From Gilvimarinus gilvus (GTDB lineage: Bacteria; Pseudomonadota; Gammaproteobacteria; Pseudomonadales; Cellvibrionaceae), in the NCBI RefSeq assembly GCF_030518155.1, contig NZ_JAULRU010000215.1, forward strand, positions 1 through 64,000: DNA of 64,000 nt. Reading direction: 5' to 3'. A model generated the notes under the pieces. It was not told the DNA's origin, ran no database searches, and saw nothing but the letters and a program-made list of their open reading frames with translations. A program made the translations under genes and the position numbers. This document shows, in pieces, positions 426 through 40,156 of the stretch (position 1 is the stretch's first letter; each line of letters begins with the position of its first letter).

Positions 426-1274
426 TTATTGCTTTTGGTATAACCACTTTACACTTTGTATAACGGTTTCAGGAAAGGCGGTAACATGATCTCCGTTAGG
501 ATAATGTTGATGAATGTTAATAAAATTGTCTTCGCGCGAGGCTAAAGCGGACACCACTTTTTCTATATGTTTACCCAAGTCGATTTCCTCTGTTCCTCGG
601 CTGATCATGACATTCCTGGGAGGGAGTCCAGGTGCCGGTTTCAAATTTATCGCCATATCGCTGAGCTCAGGCACGTAATACCACACAGATGGGCTACCTA
701 ATAGGTAATTGTTAAATGTGTCGGGCTGTGTGAGTAGTATATAAAAGCCGAACAGGCCCCCTGTCGAGTAACCAAAATATGTACGATTATTGTTTTCGGC
801 ACGATAGATTTCTTCCACTCGCGGAATCACATTATTGCGAATAAAAGTTAGATGTCTACTGGCTTTTCCAGGTTGATATTTGGCCTGAATCTCCGGGTCA
901 TCAGATTTTTTGAAAGTGTAATCTGGAAAGCGACTGGCATGTACCCCTACCTCATTCTTCTGTTTTTCCGTAATGTCTTTTCGCCAAGATATGCCAACAA
1001 GGATAACATCCTCGAAAATGTAATAAGTTGAGGATGACAGCGCTTCGATAGCCCACATTGCATCGGTAAAGTAGAGGACGGGGTAGTGTTTATCCTTGTT
1101 GTCGTAATAGTTCTTGGGTAGCTTTACATATAACTCGTAATCGGCGTTGGTAAGCGGGTCACGGATGGGCACAACTTGTGTGTGTGGCATTTGGTATGCC
1201 TTATAGTCCGTCGCTAACACGCAGGCTGGTAATCCGAGTAGTAATACTGTCAGGTAGATTGCTTTGATGTTCAT
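426..1274 (-). CDS. Secreted alpha/beta-hydrolase, putative esterase (esterase D / IroE-like)
   Basis: The 282-aa product carries an N-terminal hydrophobic signal (residues 4-20) with LPAC at 15-18, a possible lipobox. The catalytic-elbow motif GYSTGG is at 168-173 (Ser170 as nucleophile), and a late GDH at 261-263 can supply the active-site His. This order matches the PF00756 putative esterase family, which includes siderophore esterases and acyl esterases. The start at 1274 is chosen because AGGTGA lies 6-8 nt upstream and the signal peptide begins there; an upstream in-frame start at 1337 would add 21 polar residues. It is divergent from the CadC-like regulator that follows, a likely regulatory pair. 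The substrate is unknown. Confidence 0.8.
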   Translation of the reverse strand: MNIKAIYLTVLLLGLPACVLATDYKAYQMPHTQVVPIRDPLTNADYELYVKLPKNYYDNKDKHYPVLYFTDAMWAIEALSSSTYYIFEDVILVGISWRKDITEKQKNEVGVHASRFPDYTFKKSDDPEIQAKYQPGKASRHLTFIRNNVIPRVEEIYRAENNNRTYFGYSTGGLFGFYILLTQPDTFNNYLLGSPSVWYYVPELSDMAINLKPAPGLPPRNVMISRGTEEIDLGKHIEKVVSALASREDNFINIHQHYPNGDHVTAFPETVIQSVKWLYQKQ

Positions 1275-6663: not shown

Positions 6664-6731
6664 TAAATAGCCCAGCACCTGACTCTGAGCGCGATGGGCA
6701 GACATGGCTCTATTCCCGTACCCGTTCTAAC

Positions 6732-6751
6732 TGGACTTAATATGGACTTAA
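6732..6751. repeat. Direct repeat of TGGACTTAA with 11-bp period
   Basis: TGGACTTAA occurs at 6732-6740 and again at 6743-6751, one helical turn apart. This looks like an operator for a dimeric repressor, but no gene starts next to it on either strand. It may be the remnant of a lost toxin-antitoxin promoter (inference). Confidence 0.3.
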
Positions 6752-6804
6752 GTATCAGAAGCCACTCTAAAACACTCTAGGTTTCAGCTACGAAGCGTCA
6801 CCTC

Positions 6805-7019
6805 CCCATCGCAGCCAGCCGAACGCAGGTAGATTTGGTTGGTTAATCGCGCATGGACGCGCGATTAAGGAAAAACGCGTGGGAACGCGATTTTTTCCGA
6901 CCGGCCAAATCTGCCGGAGCGAGGGAACCCGAAGGGCTGAGATGCGCGGGGTGCGCTTTTTCGTCCCTTTTTGCCGCATAGGAAAAAGGGACTCGCCATC
7001 GCCCGGCGATAGAGGGCGG
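6805..7019. repeat. Structured ~210-bp repeat element, copy 1
   Basis: From CATCGCAGCCAGCCGAA the element folds as an outer stem (GGTAGATTTGG 6828-6838 with CCAAATCTGCC 6905-6915) enclosing two hairpins: TAATCGCGC/GCGCGATTA (6844-6852/6859-6867) and GGAAAAACGCG/CGCGATTTTTTCC (6869-6879/6886-6898). A further perfect 10-bp hairpin follows (GTCCCTTTTT 6963-6972 with AAAAAGGGAC 6983-6992). Copy 2 at 8255-8466 keeps every stem with different bases. Open frames through it on both strands are by-products of the palindromes. The function is unknown; RNA structure or a non-autonomous mobile element are both possible. Confidence 0.8.
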
Positions 7020-7254
7020 GAAGTACGGGATAAGGCTTATTTGAGGGGGATTGGAGAGATTTACGACTAGCGAGAAAAGAGCATAGTGGAAGTGGATATG
7101 AGTTGGGTACTCTGGCGACAGCCATCGTGCCTAGCGGGATGCATGGCGCACTCAGCCCAGGCTGCCCTCTCTGCCTCTGCGAGGCATTCACCTAGTCCCT
7201 GTGCCCCACCCTGCGGGCGACTCCGTCGTGTAAATTCGCTCCCGGCGAATTAGT

Positions 7255-7387
7255 GGTCGCTCCTGCGCTCAGCCCAGGCTGCCCTCTCTGCGCTTGCAGC
7301 GCATTCACCTTGTCCCTGCGCCCGCGGCAAAGCTGGCCCCGCGAGCGTAGCGAGTGTATTGGGTCTTCGTGCATCCATGCCCATCAA
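7255..7387. repeat. 133-bp direct repeat, copy 1
   Basis: GGTCGCTCCTGCG to GCATCCATGCCCATCAA. It is matched by 7607-7739 with the same length and only about three differences, so this is a recent duplication inside the hairpin cluster. Confidence 0.85.
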
Positions 7388-7606
7388 ACACGCTGGTGTC
7401 AGCGGTCTCACCCGACTAGATCCACAAACAAAAGCCCCCGTCCAATGGACGATATCTATCGTAGTGGTGGGACTTCGACGATTCGCGGGATGCACTCGGG
7501 CCTCGGCCCAGGCCGCCCTCTCTGTCTCTTCGAGACATTCACCTTGTCCGTGGCCCTCCCCCTCCGGGCAGCGAAGCTGTGCAAAATGGCTGTCCTGCCA
7601 TTTACA

Positions 7607-7739
7607 GGTCGCTCCTGCGCTCAGCCCAGGCTGCCCTCTCTGCGCTTGCAGCGCATTCACCTTGTCCATGCGCCCGCGACAAAGCTGGCCCCGCGAGCGC
7701 AGCGAGTGTATTGGGTCTTCGTGCATCCATGCCCATCAA
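7607..7739. repeat. 133-bp direct repeat, copy 2
   Basis: Near-identical to 7255-7387. The differences seen are C/A after TTGTCC, G/A in CCGCG(G/A)CAAAG and T/C in GCGAGCG(T/C)AGCG. Confidence 0.85.
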
Positions 7740-7947
7740 CCGGAGCTAAGCCTCGCTCCCGCTGAGCTTTCAGCGAGACAAATAAAAAACCCCCGTCCAA
7801 TGGACGATATCTATAGTAGTGGCGGGACTTCGACGATTCGCCTAGCGGTGGCCGCTCCTGCGCTTCCATGCGCCCGCGACATTCGTGCATCCATGCACAT
7901 CAACCGGAGCTAAACCTCGCTCTCGCTGAGCTTTCAGCGAGACAAAT

Positions 7948-7985
7948 AAAAAACCCCCGTACTCTCGCGAGTACGGGGGTTTTTT
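7948..7985 (-). terminator. Intrinsic terminator of tRNA-Ala
   Basis: AAAAAACCCCCGTACTC and GAGTACGGGGGTTTTTT form a very strong hairpin directly after the tRNA 3' end, with T-runs in both directions. Related but incomplete versions of this terminator occur at about 7785 and 7435 in the repeat cluster. Confidence 0.9.
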
Positions 7986-7992
7986 ATTTGTT

Positions 7993-8068
7993 TGGTGGAG
8001 CCTAGCGGGATCGAACCGCTGACCTCAACACTGCCAGTGTTGCGCTCTCCCAGCTGAGCTAAGGCCCC
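7993..8068 (-). tRNA. tRNA-Ala (anticodon GGC)
   Basis: The 76-nt minus-strand gene folds as a cloverleaf: acceptor GGGGCCU/AGGCUCC with the alanine identity pair G3-U70, D-arm GCUC..GAGC, anticodon stem CAACA/UGUUG with loop CUGGCAG (anticodon GGC, reading GCC/GCU), T-arm AGCGG-UUCGAUC-CCGCU, and an encoded CCA. It is followed by a strong terminator and preceded by its own promoter. Confidence 0.97.
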
Positions 8069-8081
8069 AAAAGAGGTGCGC

Positions 8082-8110
8082 ATGATAGGCTCGAGACCGA
8101 AAGCTGTCAA
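8082..8110 (-). promoter_or_regulatory. Sigma-70 promoter of tRNA-Ala
   Basis: On the minus strand, a perfect -35 TTGACA (8110-8105) and -10 TATCAT (8087-8082) are separated by exactly 17 bp. The -10 ends 13 bp before the mature tRNA 5' end. The stretch 8111-8254 upstream holds nothing else recognisable. Confidence 0.8.
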
Positions 8111-8254
8111 GGCTTTTACCTGAGAAATTTCAGCCAGTTAGCTTCTGTGTACAGAGTGCGGTCAACTTGCTGTTTTTTCCAACATTTGAGGATATCCCCT
8201 AGTTACGCCCCCTTACCCTTCAAGCCCCCAACAGACCTAGCTACGGAGTATTAC

Positions 8255-8466
8255 CCCCATCGCAACCAGCCGAAGGTACGCTGATTTTGCGGGTGAATTG
8301 CACACGGATGTGCAATTCAGGAAAAGCACCGGGAGGTGATTTTTTCCGACCCGTAAAATCTGTGTGCATTCGGGGACCCGCAGGGCTGAGGTGCGCGGGT
8401 GCGCTTTTTCGTCCCTTTTTGCCGCACAGGAAAAAGGGACTCGCCATCGCCCGGCGAAATAGGGCG
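8255..8466. repeat. Structured ~210-bp repeat element, copy 2
   Basis: Same orientation and order as copy 1 (6805-7019). The outer stem is GATTTTGCGGGT (8283-8294) with ACCCGTAAAATC (8349-8360). Inner hairpins are GAATTGCACA/TGTGCAATTC (8295-8304/8309-8318) and GGAAAAGCACC/GGTGATTTTTTCC (8320-8330/8335-8347). The conserved 10-bp hairpin is at 8411-8420/8431-8440. Bases in the two inner hairpins and the outer stem differ from copy 1, yet pairing is kept. It abuts the 3' end of gltX, so it may also act as a transcript end. Confidence 0.8.
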
Positions 8467-8472
8467 AAAACC

Positions 8473-9966
8473 TCAGTCGGCAGATTGCCCCAAAGCCATA
8501 AAGGCTTTCTCCAACTTCTTAAGCTGCTTCTTCCCCGGCTCCCCAAGTACATTAATCGCCTGACGCAAACGCGCGCGGCTCATATCCGGGCCCAGCAGGG
8601 TCATGGAATCCATCACCGAGAAAGACGCGGTGGTGCCGGCAATGGCCACGAATATTGGCGCCAGGAAGTCTTTGAGTTTGATGTCCATCTGCCCGGCCAA
8701 TTCCTTCAGGGTATTGAAGATGGCGTCGCGCTCCCAGTGGCGCAGGGCTTCTAAGCGCCAGAGGGCGAATTGCAGCAGTTGCTTTTGCTCGTCCAGCTCT
8801 AGCTTGTTGGCGGCAAAGTGGGCTTCGGTCAGCGGCAGAGCACCCGCGGCCAAAAAGGCCACCAGCGGGATAAAGTCGCCCAGGGTTTCCATGCGCTGCT
8901 GCGCGTGGGGCAGCATTTGCATGAGATTGTCGCGGTTGAGCGCCCACTCGGTAAGACGGTCCGCCAGGGCTTCGGTGCTCAGGTCTTCGCGAATCCACAG
9001 GCCGTTGAGCCAGCTCAGCTTTTCCACGTCGAAAATTGGGCCGCCGAGGCTGACGCGATTAATATCAAAGTGCTTCTGCATTTGCGCCAGAGAGAACTTC
9101 TCGCTTTCATCGGGCATGGACCAACCCATGCGGCCCAGATAGTTAATCACCGCCTCGGGCAGGTAACCGGCCTTTTGATAGTACAAAATGCTGGTGGGGT
9201 TTTTGCGCTTACTGAGCTTGGATTTATCCGGGTTGCGCAGCAGTGGCAAATGACACAGTACCGGCGCCTGCCAACCAAAATATTCATAAAGCTTTAAGTG
9301 CTTAGGTGCGGAGTTAATCCACTCTTCACCGCGAATCACGTGAGTAATGCCCATTAGGTGATCGTCCACCACATTGGCCAGATGATAGGTCGGCATGCCG
9401 TCGGCTTTGAGGAGCACTTGCATATCCACCTGTGACCAGTCGATTTCAATGTTGCCGCGCAACATGTCGTCAATGACGCAGACGCCCTCTTCCGGCAGCT
9501 TCATGCGCACCACATAGGGCTCGCCGGCATCGAGTTTGGCCTGTACTTGTTCGGCGCTGAGTTTTAAACCGCGGCCGTCGTACTTGGGTGTTTCACCTCG
9601 CGCTTGCTGTTCGCGGCGCATTTCGTCCAGCTCTTCGCCGGTGGCAAAACAGTAAAACGCGTGGCCTTTTTCGATCAGCTCATCGGCGTACTGTTTGTAG
9701 ATATCCATGCGCTCGCTTTGGCGGTAAGGGCCGTGATCGCCGCCCACATCCGGGCCTTCGTCCCAGTCGAGGCCGAGCCAGCGCAAGCTGTCGAGAATCG
9801 CCTGTTCCGATTCCGCGGTGCTACGAGTTTGATCGGTGTCTTCAATGCGCAGTAAAAACTGGCCGCCGTGCTGACGGGCAAAACACATATTAAACAGTGC
9901 AATATAGGCGGTGCCTACGTGGGGGTCGCCCGTGGGCGACGGAGCAATACGAGTGCGAACGGTCAT
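8473..9966 (-). CDS. gltX: Glutamate--tRNA ligase
   Basis: The 497-aa class I synthetase charges tRNA-Glu in the cytoplasm. The N-terminal [12 protein letters not shown] carries the HIGH-like motif (HVGT, residues 16-19), and the KMSKS loop is present as KLSKR near residue 250. The C-terminal anticodon-binding domain follows. The length is normal for a bacterial GluRS of the type without the CxCxY zinc site. ATG 9966 begins exactly at the conserved [13 protein letters not shown] start. tRNA-Ala lies downstream on the same strand with its own promoter. Confidence 0.97.
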
Positions 9967-9990: not shown

Positions 9991-11031
9991 CTATAAATTT
10001 ACAAAGGCCTGCCAAAGTTGCTCGCCACTAATTACCTCGAGCGTGCGTGGGCGCTTGGCTTGCCCTGCATTAACGGTGGCCGAATTATCCGGGTGGCGGC
10101 ACAGGCGCTTACCGCACATATCGCAGATATAGCCCGGCGCCACAATATGCACCGAGCGCGGGCCGGTGGCACCGATTAACGCGGGGTCCGTCGGGCCATA
10201 GGCCGTCACCGTGGGCTTACCCAACGCGGCGGCAATATGAGCAAGGCCGGTATCGTTACACACGGCGCCGCGGCTTGCGTGCAGTAGGCCCGCGAGTTGC
10301 GTCAGGCTCATACGCTCTAAAACTTTGGCGTTGTCACGCCCTTTTGCAATAGCGTTGGCCGCTTCGCGCTCGGCCGGTGAGCCCCACGGCAGCAGCACAT
10401 CCAACCCCTGTGCGGCGGCTAAATCAATCAGCCCCTGCCAGCTGGTATTGGGCAAACACTTGGTGGGCCAACTGGCGTTGGTCACCGCCACAATATACGG
10501 GTTTTGCGTCACTGTTTGCGCCGGCCAGCTTTGTTCCGCCAAGCCAAATTCGGGGGCAATGCTGGGCCGCTGGTAACCGAGGCCGGCGGCGAATAAATCG
10601 CGCCAGCGATCCACCGCTAAAATATCTTGCGCCACCGCAAAGCGGCGCTGATAAAACCAATGGGCGCCGCGCTCGCGCACCGAGTCGGCATCCGGCCCGG
10701 CGCGTAAACCGCGCGCCATACGCGTCACCGAGGCACTTTTAAAATTGGTTTGTGCATCCAACACCAGGTCGTACTCAGTGCGACGCAGCTCTTGCCAGTA
10801 GGCTTTTAATTCGCCCGATTTCCAGGCCGATTTTGGCGACTTTTTCCAGCGCCGATGCGCCGAAACAATGGTGCGCTCCACCGCCGGATGCCAGGTGGGC
10901 ACCTCGGCAAAGGCTTCATCCACCGCCCAGTCGAAACGGATACCGGGAATAGCGCGCACCGCATCGGAAACCGCGGGCAGCGTCTGCACCAAGTCTCCCA
11001 TGGAGCTGAGTTTAACGATCAGTACTTTCAT
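9991..11031 (-). CDS. waaC: Lipopolysaccharide heptosyltransferase I
   Basis: A 346-aa glycosyltransferase of family GT9. It adds the first L-glycero-D-manno-heptose to Kdo of the LPS inner core at the cytoplasmic face. The start MKVLIVKLSSMGDLVQTLP is diagnostic for WaaC. The C-terminal donor site includes CNDTGLAHIAAALGKPTVTAYGPTDP. ATG 11031 begins at this motif; longer frames run into the heptamer array upstream and are not believable. An odd C-terminal tail has CDMCGKRLC, a Cys-rich extension after the domain. It lies 24 bp upstream of gltX, possibly co-transcribed. Confidence 0.92.
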   Translation of the reverse strand: MKVLIVKLSSMGDLVQTLPAVSDAVRAIPGIRFDWAVDEAFAEVPTWHPAVERTIVSAHRRWKKSPKSAWKSGELKAYWQELRRTEYDLVLDAQTNFKSASVTRMARGLRAGPDADSVRERGAHWFYQRRFAVAQDILAVDRWRDLFAAGLGYQRPSIAPEFGLAEQSWPAQTVTQNPYIVAVTNASWPTKCLPNTSWQGLIDLAAAQGLDVLLPWGSPAEREAANAIAKGRDNAKVLERMSLTQLAGLLHASRGAVCNDTGLAHIAAALGKPTVTAYGPTDPALIGATGPRSVHIVAPGYICDMCGKRLCRHPDNSATVNAGQAKRPRTLEVISGEQLWQAFVNL

Positions 11032-11106
11032 GCGCGATTGGCCGGCCGTAAAAGCGCGCCATTGTAGCGTAAACACGGGGGTGCGGGATATGGGTTTGGT
11101 GGTGAA

Positions 11107-11225
11107 GGGGAACGGGGAACGGGGAACGGATAATGGTAAACGTGAACTGGGGACAAAGCTGGTGGCTCTGCGCAACCCATTGCCCGTCAACCGTTCGCCG
11201 TTGCCCGTCAACCGTCAACCGTCAA
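11107..11225. repeat. Heptanucleotide repeat arrays (GGGGAAC-type and CCGTCAA-type)
   Basis: First array: GGGGAAC three times at 11107-11127, then in-phase degenerate units GGATAAT and GGTAAAC. Second array: 11184-11225 is six consecutive 7-mers on the plus strand, CCGTCAA, CCGTTCG, CCGTTGC, then CCGTCAA three times. Read on the minus strand these are GGTTGAC, GGCGAAC and GGGCAAC. All non-degenerate units fit GGNNRAC. The second array contains the stop codon of the LysR gene, whose last residues (TVDG) are encoded by repeat units. Confidence 0.85.
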
Positions 11226-12143
11226 ACTCCCCATCGCCTCCCCCAAATACTGCCACACCGCATCCACGGCGCGGTTGCGCGCTTCGCGCCCCAGGCACAC
11301 CAGGTGAATGGGGGAGGCTTCGGGGTGGCGCCAGCCGGTGAGTACTGGCACTAAGCTGCCCGCAGCCAGCTCTGGCTGAATAAGTAGCGGGTCGACAAAC
11401 ACTACCCCTAGCCCCATTGCCGCCAGAGCCGCGAGCGAGCGGCCATCGTCGCCGCATATGGCATCGTCTATGGCGACGTTGACAGTGTCACCATCGTTGT
11501 TGGCAAAGGTCCAGTGGTCCATCGCGAACTGAGAGTTTTTGAAAAACAAACACGGGTGCTGGGTGAGCTCGCGCGGATTCGTCAGTGGTTTAGCCCGTGC
11601 CAAGTAACTTGGGGCGGCGTAACACGCCCAGGACTTTTCGCCAATTTTTTTGGCCACCAGTGACGAGTTAGGTAAGTGCCCTACCCGCACGGCAATGTCC
11701 ACCCGCTGGCTAATTAAATCCACCACCTCGTCGGTAATATTAAACTCCAACGCCACCTTGGGGAAACGCCGTCGCAACTCGGGGATCACCGGCAGTAAAT
11801 AGCGCTCGCCAATTAAGGTGGAACTGCTGATTTTAACCCGGCCGGCGGGCTCGGCCTGTTGCGCCATTTTCAAACTGGCGGCGCTGTCCAACACGCCCTG
11901 CAGTGATTGGGCCGAAACCAACAGGCTGGCGCCCTCATCGGTCAGGCAAAGCTGGCGGGTACTGCGCTGCAATAAGCGCTGGCCCAGCGCCTCCTCAAGC
12001 TGGCTGACTTTTTTACTGATGGACGAGCGCGGCAAACCCAGCGCTGTCGCCGCAGCCTGAAAGCTGCCCAGCCCAGCCACCCGCGTAAACACGTACAGCT
12101 GGGGCAGGTGTTGGTGCAACAGACGCACAATATCGACATTCAT
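11208..12143 (-). CDS. LysR-family transcriptional regulator
   Basis: The 311-aa protein has an N-terminal winged helix-turn-helix (about residues 12-70, with GSFQAAATALGLPRSSISKK and LEEALGQRLLQRSTR) and a type 2 periplasmic-binding-like effector domain. The sub-type resembles CrgA/YafC-like LysR proteins. ATG 12143 is preferred; longer frames start inside the heptamer array at 12151-12187. The C-terminus runs into the second heptamer array and ends within it. It is divergent from the SDR gene at 12311, its likely target, with 167 bp between them. Confidence 0.9.
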   Translation of the reverse strand: MNVDIVRLLHQHLPQLYVFTRVAGLGSFQAAATALGLPRSSISKKVSQLEEALGQRLLQRSTRQLCLTDEGASLLVSAQSLQGVLDSAASLKMAQQAEPAGRVKISSSTLIGERYLLPVIPELRRRFPKVALEFNITDEVVDLISQRVDIAVRVGHLPNSSLVAKKIGEKSWACYAAPSYLARAKPLTNPRELTQHPCLFFKNSQFAMDHWTFANNDGDTVNVAIDDAICGDDGRSLAALAAMGLGVVFVDPLLIQPELAAGSLVPVLTGWRHPEASPIHLVCLGREARNRAVDAVWQYLGEAMGSLTVDG

Positions 12144-12150
12144 ATTCTTT

Positions 12151-12187
12151 CGTTCCCCGTTCCCCGTTCCCCGTTCCCCGTTCCCCG
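12151..12187. repeat. Heptanucleotide array, CGTTCCC x5
   Basis: Five perfect units plus CG. The minus-strand unit is GGGGAAC, the same as in the array at 11107. The LysR gene is thus bracketed by heptamer arrays. It lies just upstream of the LysR start codon, in the LysR/SDR control region. Confidence 0.9.
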
Positions 12188-12310
12188 ACAATTATTTCCC
12201 ATCCAGAACCATTAAGTTTCCACAATGGTGACTTATCGGAAACAGAATCCCAATTTACACTTGCCTGCAATGAAAACGCAAGTTCAGTCCAGCCCCATAA
12301 GGAGATCCCC

Positions 12311-13036
12311 ATGAGCAAAACGGTTTTAATAACAGGCGGCACCTCAGGTATAGGTTACGCGAGCGCCAAAGCCCTGAAGGCAGAGGGAAATCGAGTGCTG
12401 ATTACCGGCCGCGATCAGGCGCGATTAGATAAAGCCGCAAGTGAACTCGGTGTTGAGGCCATTTTGTGTGATAGCACAAACGCCGCTGCCATTGTCGCGC
12501 TGGGCAAACGCTTGGCAAAAGACGGTATAACCCTGGATGGACTGGTACTGAACGCCGGTATTTTTTACCCGCGCGCGATCAGCGACGAGAGCTGGGACAA
12601 TATTCAGGTCACCATGAACACCAACTTTGCCGGCCCGTTTATGATGATGCAAGCCTTGGCAGGCACTATGAGCAACCCGGCAAGCGTGGTGTTTATTTCC
12701 AGCGTGGCGGTCGAAAAAGCACACCCCACCTGCGCCGCCTATGCGGCCAGTAAAGCGGCCTTTGAAGCGGCGGCGGGCGTTATGAATGTGGAGCTGGCGG
12801 CCAGCGGCATTCGGGTGAACTCCATTCGCCCCGGGGTGACCTTAACGGAGATTCAGAAAAAAGCCGGCATGAGCGACGAGGACATTGCCGGGCTTGCCGA
12901 ATCCCTCAAGGGCTTGCCGGTGGGGCGCATATTATCGCCCGCTGACATAGTCCCCGCCGTGCAATACCTGCTCAGCGATGCCAGCATTGCCATGCGCAAT
13001 GGGCATATGACGATTGATGGTGGGTTTGGGTTGTAG
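12311..13036 (+). CDS. Short-chain dehydrogenase/reductase (SDR)
   Basis: A classical 241-aa SDR, NAD(P)-dependent and cytoplasmic. The cofactor motif TGGTSGIG is at residues 8-15, the structural LVLNAG follows, the catalytic Ser is in FISSVAV and the YxxxK active site is YAASK. The C-terminus ends MTIDGGFGL as in many sugar/keto-acyl SDRs. AAGGAG is 8 nt upstream of the ATG. The partner is the divergent LysR gene. The substrate cannot be told from sequence. Confidence 0.92.
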   Translation: MSKTVLITGGTSGIGYASAKALKAEGNRVLITGRDQARLDKAASELGVEAILCDSTNAAAIVALGKRLAKDGITLDGLVLNAGIFYPRAISDESWDNIQVTMNTNFAGPFMMMQALAGTMSNPASVVFISSVAVEKAHPTCAAYAASKAAFEAAAGVMNVELAASGIRVNSIRPGVTLTEIQKKAGMSDEDIAGLAESLKGLPVGRILSPADIVPAVQYLLSDASIAMRNGHMTIDGGFGL

Positions 13037-39959: not shown

Positions 39960-40113
39960 CCAGATGGTAGCCCTCCGCTCCATCACGGTTCGGATACAGG
40001 CCGGTATCGGGCTTACAAGTATGCACTTGATCACCGTTGCGGGGGCAGCGCCGGATTTCCGGACTTCCCGTTTACCCTACTCAGCTCTGGCATCGCCAGG
40101 CAGCAGGCACCAT
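39960..40113 (-). promoter_or_regulatory. Cobalamin riboswitch
   Basis: On the minus strand, from GGTGCCTG (40111-40104) through GGGAAGTCCGG, AAAT, CCGGCGCTGCCCCCGCAACG and GTGA to the GTAAGCCCGATACCGGCC B12-box region near 39995-40015, the sequence matches the AdoCbl aptamer in order and spacing. The remaining ~90 bp to the btuB ATG would be the expression platform. High B12 should switch the whole btuB-btuF operon off. Confidence 0.93.
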
Positions 40114-40127
40114 ATATCGTGGCGCGC

Positions 40128-40156
40128 AATGTAAGGGGGTTGAGCGTATTTGTCAA
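40128..40156 (-). promoter_or_regulatory. Sigma-70 promoter of the B12 operon
   Basis: A minus-strand -35 TTGACA (40156-40151) is followed after 17 bp by TACATT (40133-40128). The start of transcription would fall about 8-10 bp before the first base of the riboswitch aptamer. Confidence 0.65.

Follow-up and report, generated by a model that had tools for sequence, protein, structure and literature searches.

A dispersed, strand-specific folded element of Gilvimarinus, apparently a distant relative of the TwoAYGGAY family, and its divergent pairs bounding variable cassettes

The CsrB, CsrC and RsmX/Y/Z RNAs are sponge RNAs that present GGA in hairpin loops and are encoded at few loci. REP and REPIN sequences are short, intergenic, multi-copy palindromes associated with RAYT, while in integron attC sites and at the ends of IS200/IS605 elements activity resides in one folded DNA strand. 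The CsrB/CsrC/RsmX/Y/Z group is named as CsrA-binding and the TwoAYGGAY family has been proposed to bind CsrA (PMC4333381), the latter having been listed as probably RNA, from the human gut, gamma-proteobacteria and Clostridiales (Weinberg 2010, PMC2864571). For TwoAYGGAY, the titles, abstracts and passages of the open papers found name CsrA as a proposed partner and contain no tested biology, no description of dispersed or paired copies and no link with defence cassettes; PMC11701678 and PMC9788540 have no bearing on the matter.

The stretch of DNA analysed here (hereafter the window) comprises 64,000 nucleotides from Gilvimarinus gilvus, a member of a genus of marine, non-pathogenic bacteria. 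An earlier note had described in it two elements flanking a tRNA-Ala gene; their place is as described, whereas both begin earlier than was supposed, at CTACGAAG (6788) and CTACGGAG (8241) (Table 1). The two copies lie on the same strand with their parts in the same order, and the outer stem, two inner hairpins and distal hairpin that the note had listed are present in both at matching coordinates. They are not the only two copies: blastn with copy 1 finds 27 matching places in the same genome (G000), many of them partial, and covariance models give 23 matches there, copies 1 and 2 included. The reading preferred here, with a probability of about 0.58, is that they belong to a dispersed, strand-specific structured RNA element of the CsrA type, related to TwoAYGGAY.

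Table 1. Coordinates of the two element copies and of neighbouring features in the window
Feature	Position	Strand	Details and basis
Copy 1, whole element, subtype A	6788..7017	+	CTACGAAG to GAGGGC; borders from 45 full-length copies compared
Copy 1, three-way junction	6828..6915	+	P1 6828-6843 with 6900-6915; P2 6844-6867; P3 6869-6898
Copy 1, P2 loop AUGGAC (GGA motif)	6853..6858	+	sequence
Copy 1, P3 loop UGGGAA (GGA motif)	6880..6885	+	sequence
Copy 1, distal hairpin P4, GUCCCUUUUU/AAAAAGGGAC	6963..6992	+	fold; followed by UCGCC..GGCGA 6993-7009
46-bp hairpin repeat targeted to GGA, three free copies	7250..7670	-	AAGGTGAAT starts near 7311, 7545, 7663
tRNA-Ala(GGC), between the copies, context outside the element	7993..8068	-	ARAGORN, Rfam
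Copy 2, whole element, subtype A	8241..8465	+	starts CTACGGAG; 3' end 8 bases from gltX ORF end
Copy 2, three-way junction	8279..8364	+	P1 8279-8294 with 8349-8364; P2 8295-8318; P3 8320-8347
Copy 2, P2 loop ACGGAU (GGA motif)	8304..8309	+	sequence
Copy 2, P3 loop GGGA	8331..8334	+	sequence
Copy 2, distal hairpin P4	8411..8440	+	fold
Glutamyl-tRNA synthetase-type gene (presumably gltX), convergent with copy 2, context	8473..9966	-	ORF list

The element is about 220 nt long. Comparison of 45 distinct full-length copies gives the order CTACGAAG, a C-rich spacer, a conserved stretch around CAGCCGA, the 5' arm of P1 (16 pairs), P2, P3, the return arm of P1, a conserved stretch GAGGGAACCCGnAGGGCTGAGATGC, P4, TCGCC..GGCGA and GAGGGC. 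P3 separates two subtypes: A, to which both window copies belong, and B, which is represented by more copies in the alignments. All 36 junction pairs of copy 1 are standard, as judged from the fold, the hand structure on the subtype A alignment and pair counts, as are 35 of 36 in copy 2 from the fold and hand structure. Folded singly, copies 1 and 2 reach -105.5 kcal/mol (z -5.0) and -104.4 kcal/mol (z -6.3), respectively, and 0/200 shuffles do as well in either case. The claim that the stems of the two copies differ and still pair holds for the outer stem and the inner hairpins but not for the distal half, since the distal ~85 nt are nearly identical in these two copies. Over 45 copies P4 has 25 distinct arm pairs, a count that serves as an illustration and not as a test because the script seeks exactly complementary arms.

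The glutamyl-tRNA synthetase-type gene has matches in 8/8 Gilvimarinus genomes, and the interval between it and tRNA-Ala carries at least one element in six of the eight. Only the 3' part of an element, near a contig end, is present there in G001, and neither an element nor a tRNA was found in the 5.1 kb read in G002. Judged by eye, the site holds subtype A in G000 and G006 and subtype B in the other four genomes, indicating that the element type was replaced there. Remnants resembling tRNA-Ala lie next to additional element copies in loci L071, L072 and L073 (by eye), as if tRNA and element had been duplicated in tandem at the gltX locus; L071 also has a Fic/Doc-family gene between two same-oriented copies. 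In the window, positions 7110-7960 form a dense patchwork of several other hairpin repeats, among them the three 46-bp repeats of Table 1, and a strong terminator-like hairpin (~7955-7990) follows, adjoining tRNA-Ala. Farther away there are a cobalamin riboswitch (39982-40130, minus strand; Rfam, 48.2 bits) and, at ~10990-12340, ORF ends that carry repeated sequence of the GNGERGTGNGER type, probably a further DNA repeat that is read through.

Conservation of the fold was assessed on hand structures drawn on MAFFT alignments, A3 for subtype B (26 copies, 34 pairs) and A4 for subtype A (13 copies, 36 pairs). In A3 95.8% of 883 cells are paired and 25/34 pairs have changed on both sides; the corresponding values for A4 are 96.8% of 467 cells and 15/36 pairs. 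The observed pairing and covariation score are reached by 0/500 shuffles in both subtypes. The measure 'further pair types' in subtype A is reached by 83/500, which counts against an RNA reading. Sliding the partner strand by 1-3 columns lowers pairing to 35-48%, a control favoured by the structures having been drawn on the same sequences. A covariation test of the kind the earlier note had proposed was performed with a script written for the purpose in place of R-scape, the null of which replays substitutions on the tree and thus preserves phylogeny. Among all pairs it finds three significant ones in subtype B and one in subtype A, every one in the structure, and no significant covariation outside the fold in either subtype under this null; of the structure's own pairs, 14/34 (B) and 5/36 (A) have E<0.05. 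The three-way junction fold and its GGA loops are kept while the stem bases change. The suggestion that the structure is under constraint is supported by the covariance models, by many further copies that keep pairing and by the phylogeny-preserving test, and the element itself matches no coding or IS sequence.

A decaying stem yields G.U and A.C in equal numbers unless one strand folds. The ratios of G.U to A.C are 23:5 and 30:4 in two MAFFT alignments (pooled 53:9, p 1e-8) and 95:13 in a model-fitted alignment, a type of alignment that favours G.U. The excess of G.U therefore identifies the plus strand of the element as the folded one; it identifies the strand, and not RNA as against DNA. 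The bias fits folded single-stranded DNA as well, which counts against the RNA reading. The earlier note had also offered that the covariation might be templated during copying, i.e. that template switching corrects quasi-palindromes as DNA is copied and covariation is a by-product with no selected structure. Long, well-matched stems are what such a process would leave, but it predicts Watson-Crick repair without strand bias, as opposed to the 53 G.U and 9 A.C observed, and it does not account for the P3 mismatch position of subtype B, unpaired in 25/26 copies (T.T 16, C.T 9, A-T 1), for the GGA kept in the loops or for outer stem arms that covary though two hairpins separate them. Template switching is consequently regarded as extremely unlikely.

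Relatives of the window copies were sought with a covariance model, R1, built from subtype B alone without the window copies. It scores the core of copy 1 at 97.1 bits (E 4e-26) and copy 2 at 60.1 bits (E 2e-15); with R2, of which copy 1 is one of the seeds, the copy 1 core (6815-6940) scores 148.9 bits. The search of related genomes that had been proposed as a check finds the element in at least 24/120 genomes and at least 11/32 genera of the family, including all 8 Gilvimarinus genomes examined, these counts being lower bounds as the best candidates per genome were scored; in the control genome G013, 400 kb yield no R1 match. With blastn, copy 1 matches 9/38 genomes, its own counted, namely all 8 Gilvimarinus genomes plus G020, from a different genus, where the match is a 30-bp stub only. 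Beyond Gilvimarinus, further genera of the family and a genus belonging to another family (G290, G401) share the architecture. One locus of another genus, L094, carries in addition a Guanidine-II riboswitch match over the cut-off (797-846, minus strand).

Among 20 loci compared with the Rfam model of TwoAYGGAY (RF01731), the gathering cut-off (43 bits) is exceeded by 8/10 Gilvimarinus loci of subtype B, 4/5 from other genera and 0/5 of subtype A. In a second set of 8 loci one is over the cut-off (L037, 44.7 bits), four score 38.8-42.9 bits and three have no match. The 64-kb window has no TwoAYGGAY match at the cut-off, and positions 6700-8600 have none even at E<=1, which counts against the preferred reading. 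Also against it, each window copy has AYGGAY in one of its two loops only, P2 (AUGGAC, ACGGAU) fitting the motif and P3 (UGGGAA, (C)GGGA(G)) not. No other Rfam family matches the element at gathering score, in the window or in the sister loci searched. TwoAYGGAY itself has matches in 18/274 genomes of the class, 14 of these over the cut-off and several with at least 9 matches, and in 0/14 well-known control genomes. On these comparisons the window element appears to be a divergent subtype (A) distantly related to the TwoAYGGAY family. That no named family was recognised in it needs amending, as sister copies match TwoAYGGAY.

Of 69 distinct cores (47 from Gilvimarinus and 22 from other genera), 66 carry GGA in both terminal loops, with 67/69 for P2 and 68/69 for P3, at least one exception being a truncated row; the CsrA/RsmA-type arrangement, one strand with two or more GGA-bearing hairpin loops, is thus found in 66/69. 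The commonest loop forms are CATGGACG, CAGGACG and CAGGGACG, which are presumably close to the CsrA-site consensus. Two considerations place an action as RNA first: both GGA loops persist across genera that otherwise differ in sequence, and the family matched by sister copies had already been proposed to bind CsrA; form of the loops and family membership point to CsrA as the likely route. The element would be transcribed from its 5' side, and the two GGA hairpins would bind a CsrA/RsmA dimer in the manner of RsmZ/CsrB-type RNAs. It could then place the flanking transcript under CsrA control, as a 3'-UTR or edge element, or else sequester CsrA as a sponge. The copies may have spread and been retained at intergenic edges, partly as divergent inverted pairs bounding accessory, and partly defence, cassettes. 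Perfect hairpins at large (stem 7 or more) show no enrichment of GGA loops, with 12/174 in a 400-kb Gilvimarinus sample against 10/173 in 400 kb of a control genome, which counts against the CsrA reading; genome-wide enrichment was accordingly rejected. In the 64-kb window GGA/TCC occurs in 5/20 hairpins, element copies included. The genome has one csrA match (L159 / L020, G000:C754:127243-128485), which adjoins a tRNA and has two subtype B copies within ~1.2 kb.

The GGA triplet is associated with a second repeat, a 46-bp hairpin whose own stems vary and still match (by eye). In 27/28 distinct copies found by pattern it starts right after GGA, which lies at most 5 bases upstream. The sites include P2 and P3 of both subtypes as well as other hairpins, and such different host stems imply several insertion events, although some insertions likely share descent. 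Insertion after GGA looks like recognition at the DNA level and goes against the RNA reading. Runs of another palindromic repeat, of the TCTGAYGTCYGA type, adjoin elements in G000 (e.g. L003, L012, L014).

Among the loci searched, 66 distinct full-length copies were compared for their surroundings. A coding explanation was rejected, as only 1/66 overlaps an ORF of at least 200 aa. On the 3' side, 52/65 copies have a neighbour of opposite strand, the median distance being 104 bases; on the 5' side 43/65 do. An element acting as a transcription boundary between convergent units, a bidirectional terminator or insulator with incidental GGA loops, would account for the opposite-strand 3' neighbours, for copy 2 stopping so close to the gltX ORF end (8 bases) and for a left boundary, at metH, just after a terminator-like hairpin (by eye). 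Against this, no U run follows the distal hairpin (by eye), and termination leaves the near-invariant GGA of two loops unexplained; this role is considered very unlikely.

Some copies form divergent pairs, with their 5' ends facing each other and their 3' ends outward, while others are single or same-oriented. Minimal pairs, whose cores are ~110-175 bp apart, were seen in Gilvimarinus (L222, L224), three further genera of its family (L087, L094, L098) and the genus of another family (G290, G401; L217, L218, L219, L226); the remaining divergent pairs bound ~0.8-9 kb. At metH in G000 the order is element, gene for a 934-aa SIR2 protein, second element, RelE-like/antitoxin pair, third copy; an IS481-type transposase gene in the right-hand part of the island interrupts this third copy. 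At the same site G005 has GmrSD-type and FRG-domain proteins between two elements, and G006 an element with a UG36-class defence reverse transcriptase (PADLOC E 4e-200) and one boundary seen. G003, G004 and G007 have the gene that follows the island of G000 directly after metH (66-70% identical proteins), i.e. an empty site in three species, so that occupied (G000, G005) and empty orthologous sites, as expected of a mobile element, are both found; in G001 and G002 the neighbours are different ones, and the stretch read there contains no element. At a second locus the cassettes are flanked by a pair of conserved genes (94-99% and 95-97% identical): G004 carries CBASS (Cap15 and cyclase), TIR and RelA/SpoT-domain genes, and G003 and G007 carry different genes with no detectable similarity to those of G004 or to each other's. 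Divergent inverted pairs bounding variable cassettes at orthologous sites are new here.

Among the units listed, 11 from Gilvimarinus have both boundaries and contain ORFs of at least 150 aa, and defence genes were counted in these. PADLOC hits (E<=1e-10) were obtained for 8/31 ORFs, as compared with 0/30 random ORFs of one genome (Fisher p 0.003); the hits lie in only 3/11 units (L202, L200, L212) and are not independent, most units being without a strong match. Enrichment of pair-bounded cassettes in defence genes is therefore suggestive. Below the cut-off there are a HEPN domain (L168) and weak matches (L210, L214). The count leaves out L201 and L209, each with one boundary (a reverse transcriptase hit in L201, no hit for the two proteins tested in L209), two loci of other genera, L176 (SIR2-like, 8e-9) and L177 (KAP-like, 8e-73, outside a divergent pair), L223 (a pair without ORFs of at least 150 aa), L215 and L216 (pairs of another family) and L071 (the Fic/Doc gene). 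A SIR2/ThsA-like gene (L224:575-1390, minus strand; PADLOC E 7e-36) lies near a three-element cluster, outside a divergent pair.

A role in DNA recombination or transposition is suggested by the paired boundaries, the exchange of cassettes and the GGA-targeted insertion. One strand would fold as single-stranded DNA, as in attC or IS200/IS605, the inverted pairs would be termini of cassettes moved in trans and the GGA loop would be the cut or target site. The pairs with outward 3' ends that bound different cassettes at metH and at the second locus (G003, G004, G007), the recurrence of minimal pairs in Gilvimarinus, three other genera and another family, and the position of the 46-bp repeat are all consistent with it. 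No recombinase was recognised between paired elements, however, and the IS481-type transposase of the G000 metH island or the IS-type transposase beside, and outside, the L215 pair could have moved the DNA. Moreover, homologous recombination between dispersed repeats would likewise exchange cassettes, the diverged intergenic DNA at metH does not allow a target-site duplication or exact join to be resolved, and the two Y1-transposase matches lie far from any blastn copy (C157 carries none, and on C184 the nearest is ~69 kb away). A recombination end, the main rival of the preferred reading, is possible but rather doubtful as the main explanation. A RAYT/REP system was rejected on the same Y1_Tnp matches and the lack of a RAYT beside the repeats, and a simple IS or MITE because the element has no transposase, no phage or plasmid match and, by eye, no terminal inverted repeat within one copy.

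The RNA action and the recombination role may both be true together. In a more speculative and, as a whole, improbable form, outward-facing pairs of TwoAYGGAY/CsrA type would form the termini in a system of cassette exchange, by which accessory genes, some of them for anti-phage defence, pass between fixed sites on gammaproteobacterial chromosomes, one folded element serving as recombination end, with the GGA loop as cut or target, and, when transcribed, as a CsrA-binding RNA coupling the cassettes to the carbon-storage regulator. In these genomes TwoAYGGAY is a multi-copy dispersed element that includes a subtype missed by the Rfam model. To the earlier description are added a statistically supported fold, one folded strand, inverted pairs in several genera and a second family, and exchangeable cassettes between the pairs, some with defence genes. 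The questions raised are whether RNAs of the element sequester CsrA and how small accessory cassettes move without a recombinase of their own.

Among known systems, the element resembles TwoAYGGAY in its core with two GGA-loop hairpins and in that subtype B and copies of other genera pass the gathering cut-off. It differs in the P3 of subtype A (GGAAAAA-CGCG ... CGCGATTTTTTCC), with the loop UGGGAA/CGGGAG in place of AYGGAY, which the Rfam model misses, in extra 5' (CTACGAAG..) and 3' (P4, UCGCC..GGCGA..GGGC) modules, and in being found partly in divergent pairs bounding cassettes. With the CsrB/CsrC/RsmX/Y/Z sponge RNAs it shares GGA in hairpin loops and paired sites, whereas it has a three-way junction and many dispersed copies per genome in contrast to their few loci. 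Like REP/REPIN with RAYT it is intergenic, multi-copy, non-coding and partly in inverted pairs, but it is a ~220-nt element with a three-way junction, and no blastn copy of it lies near either Y1-transposase match. With integron attC sites and IS200/IS605 ends it would have in common one folded DNA strand and cargo that can include defence and toxin-antitoxin genes, while here two outward-facing copies bound each cassette.
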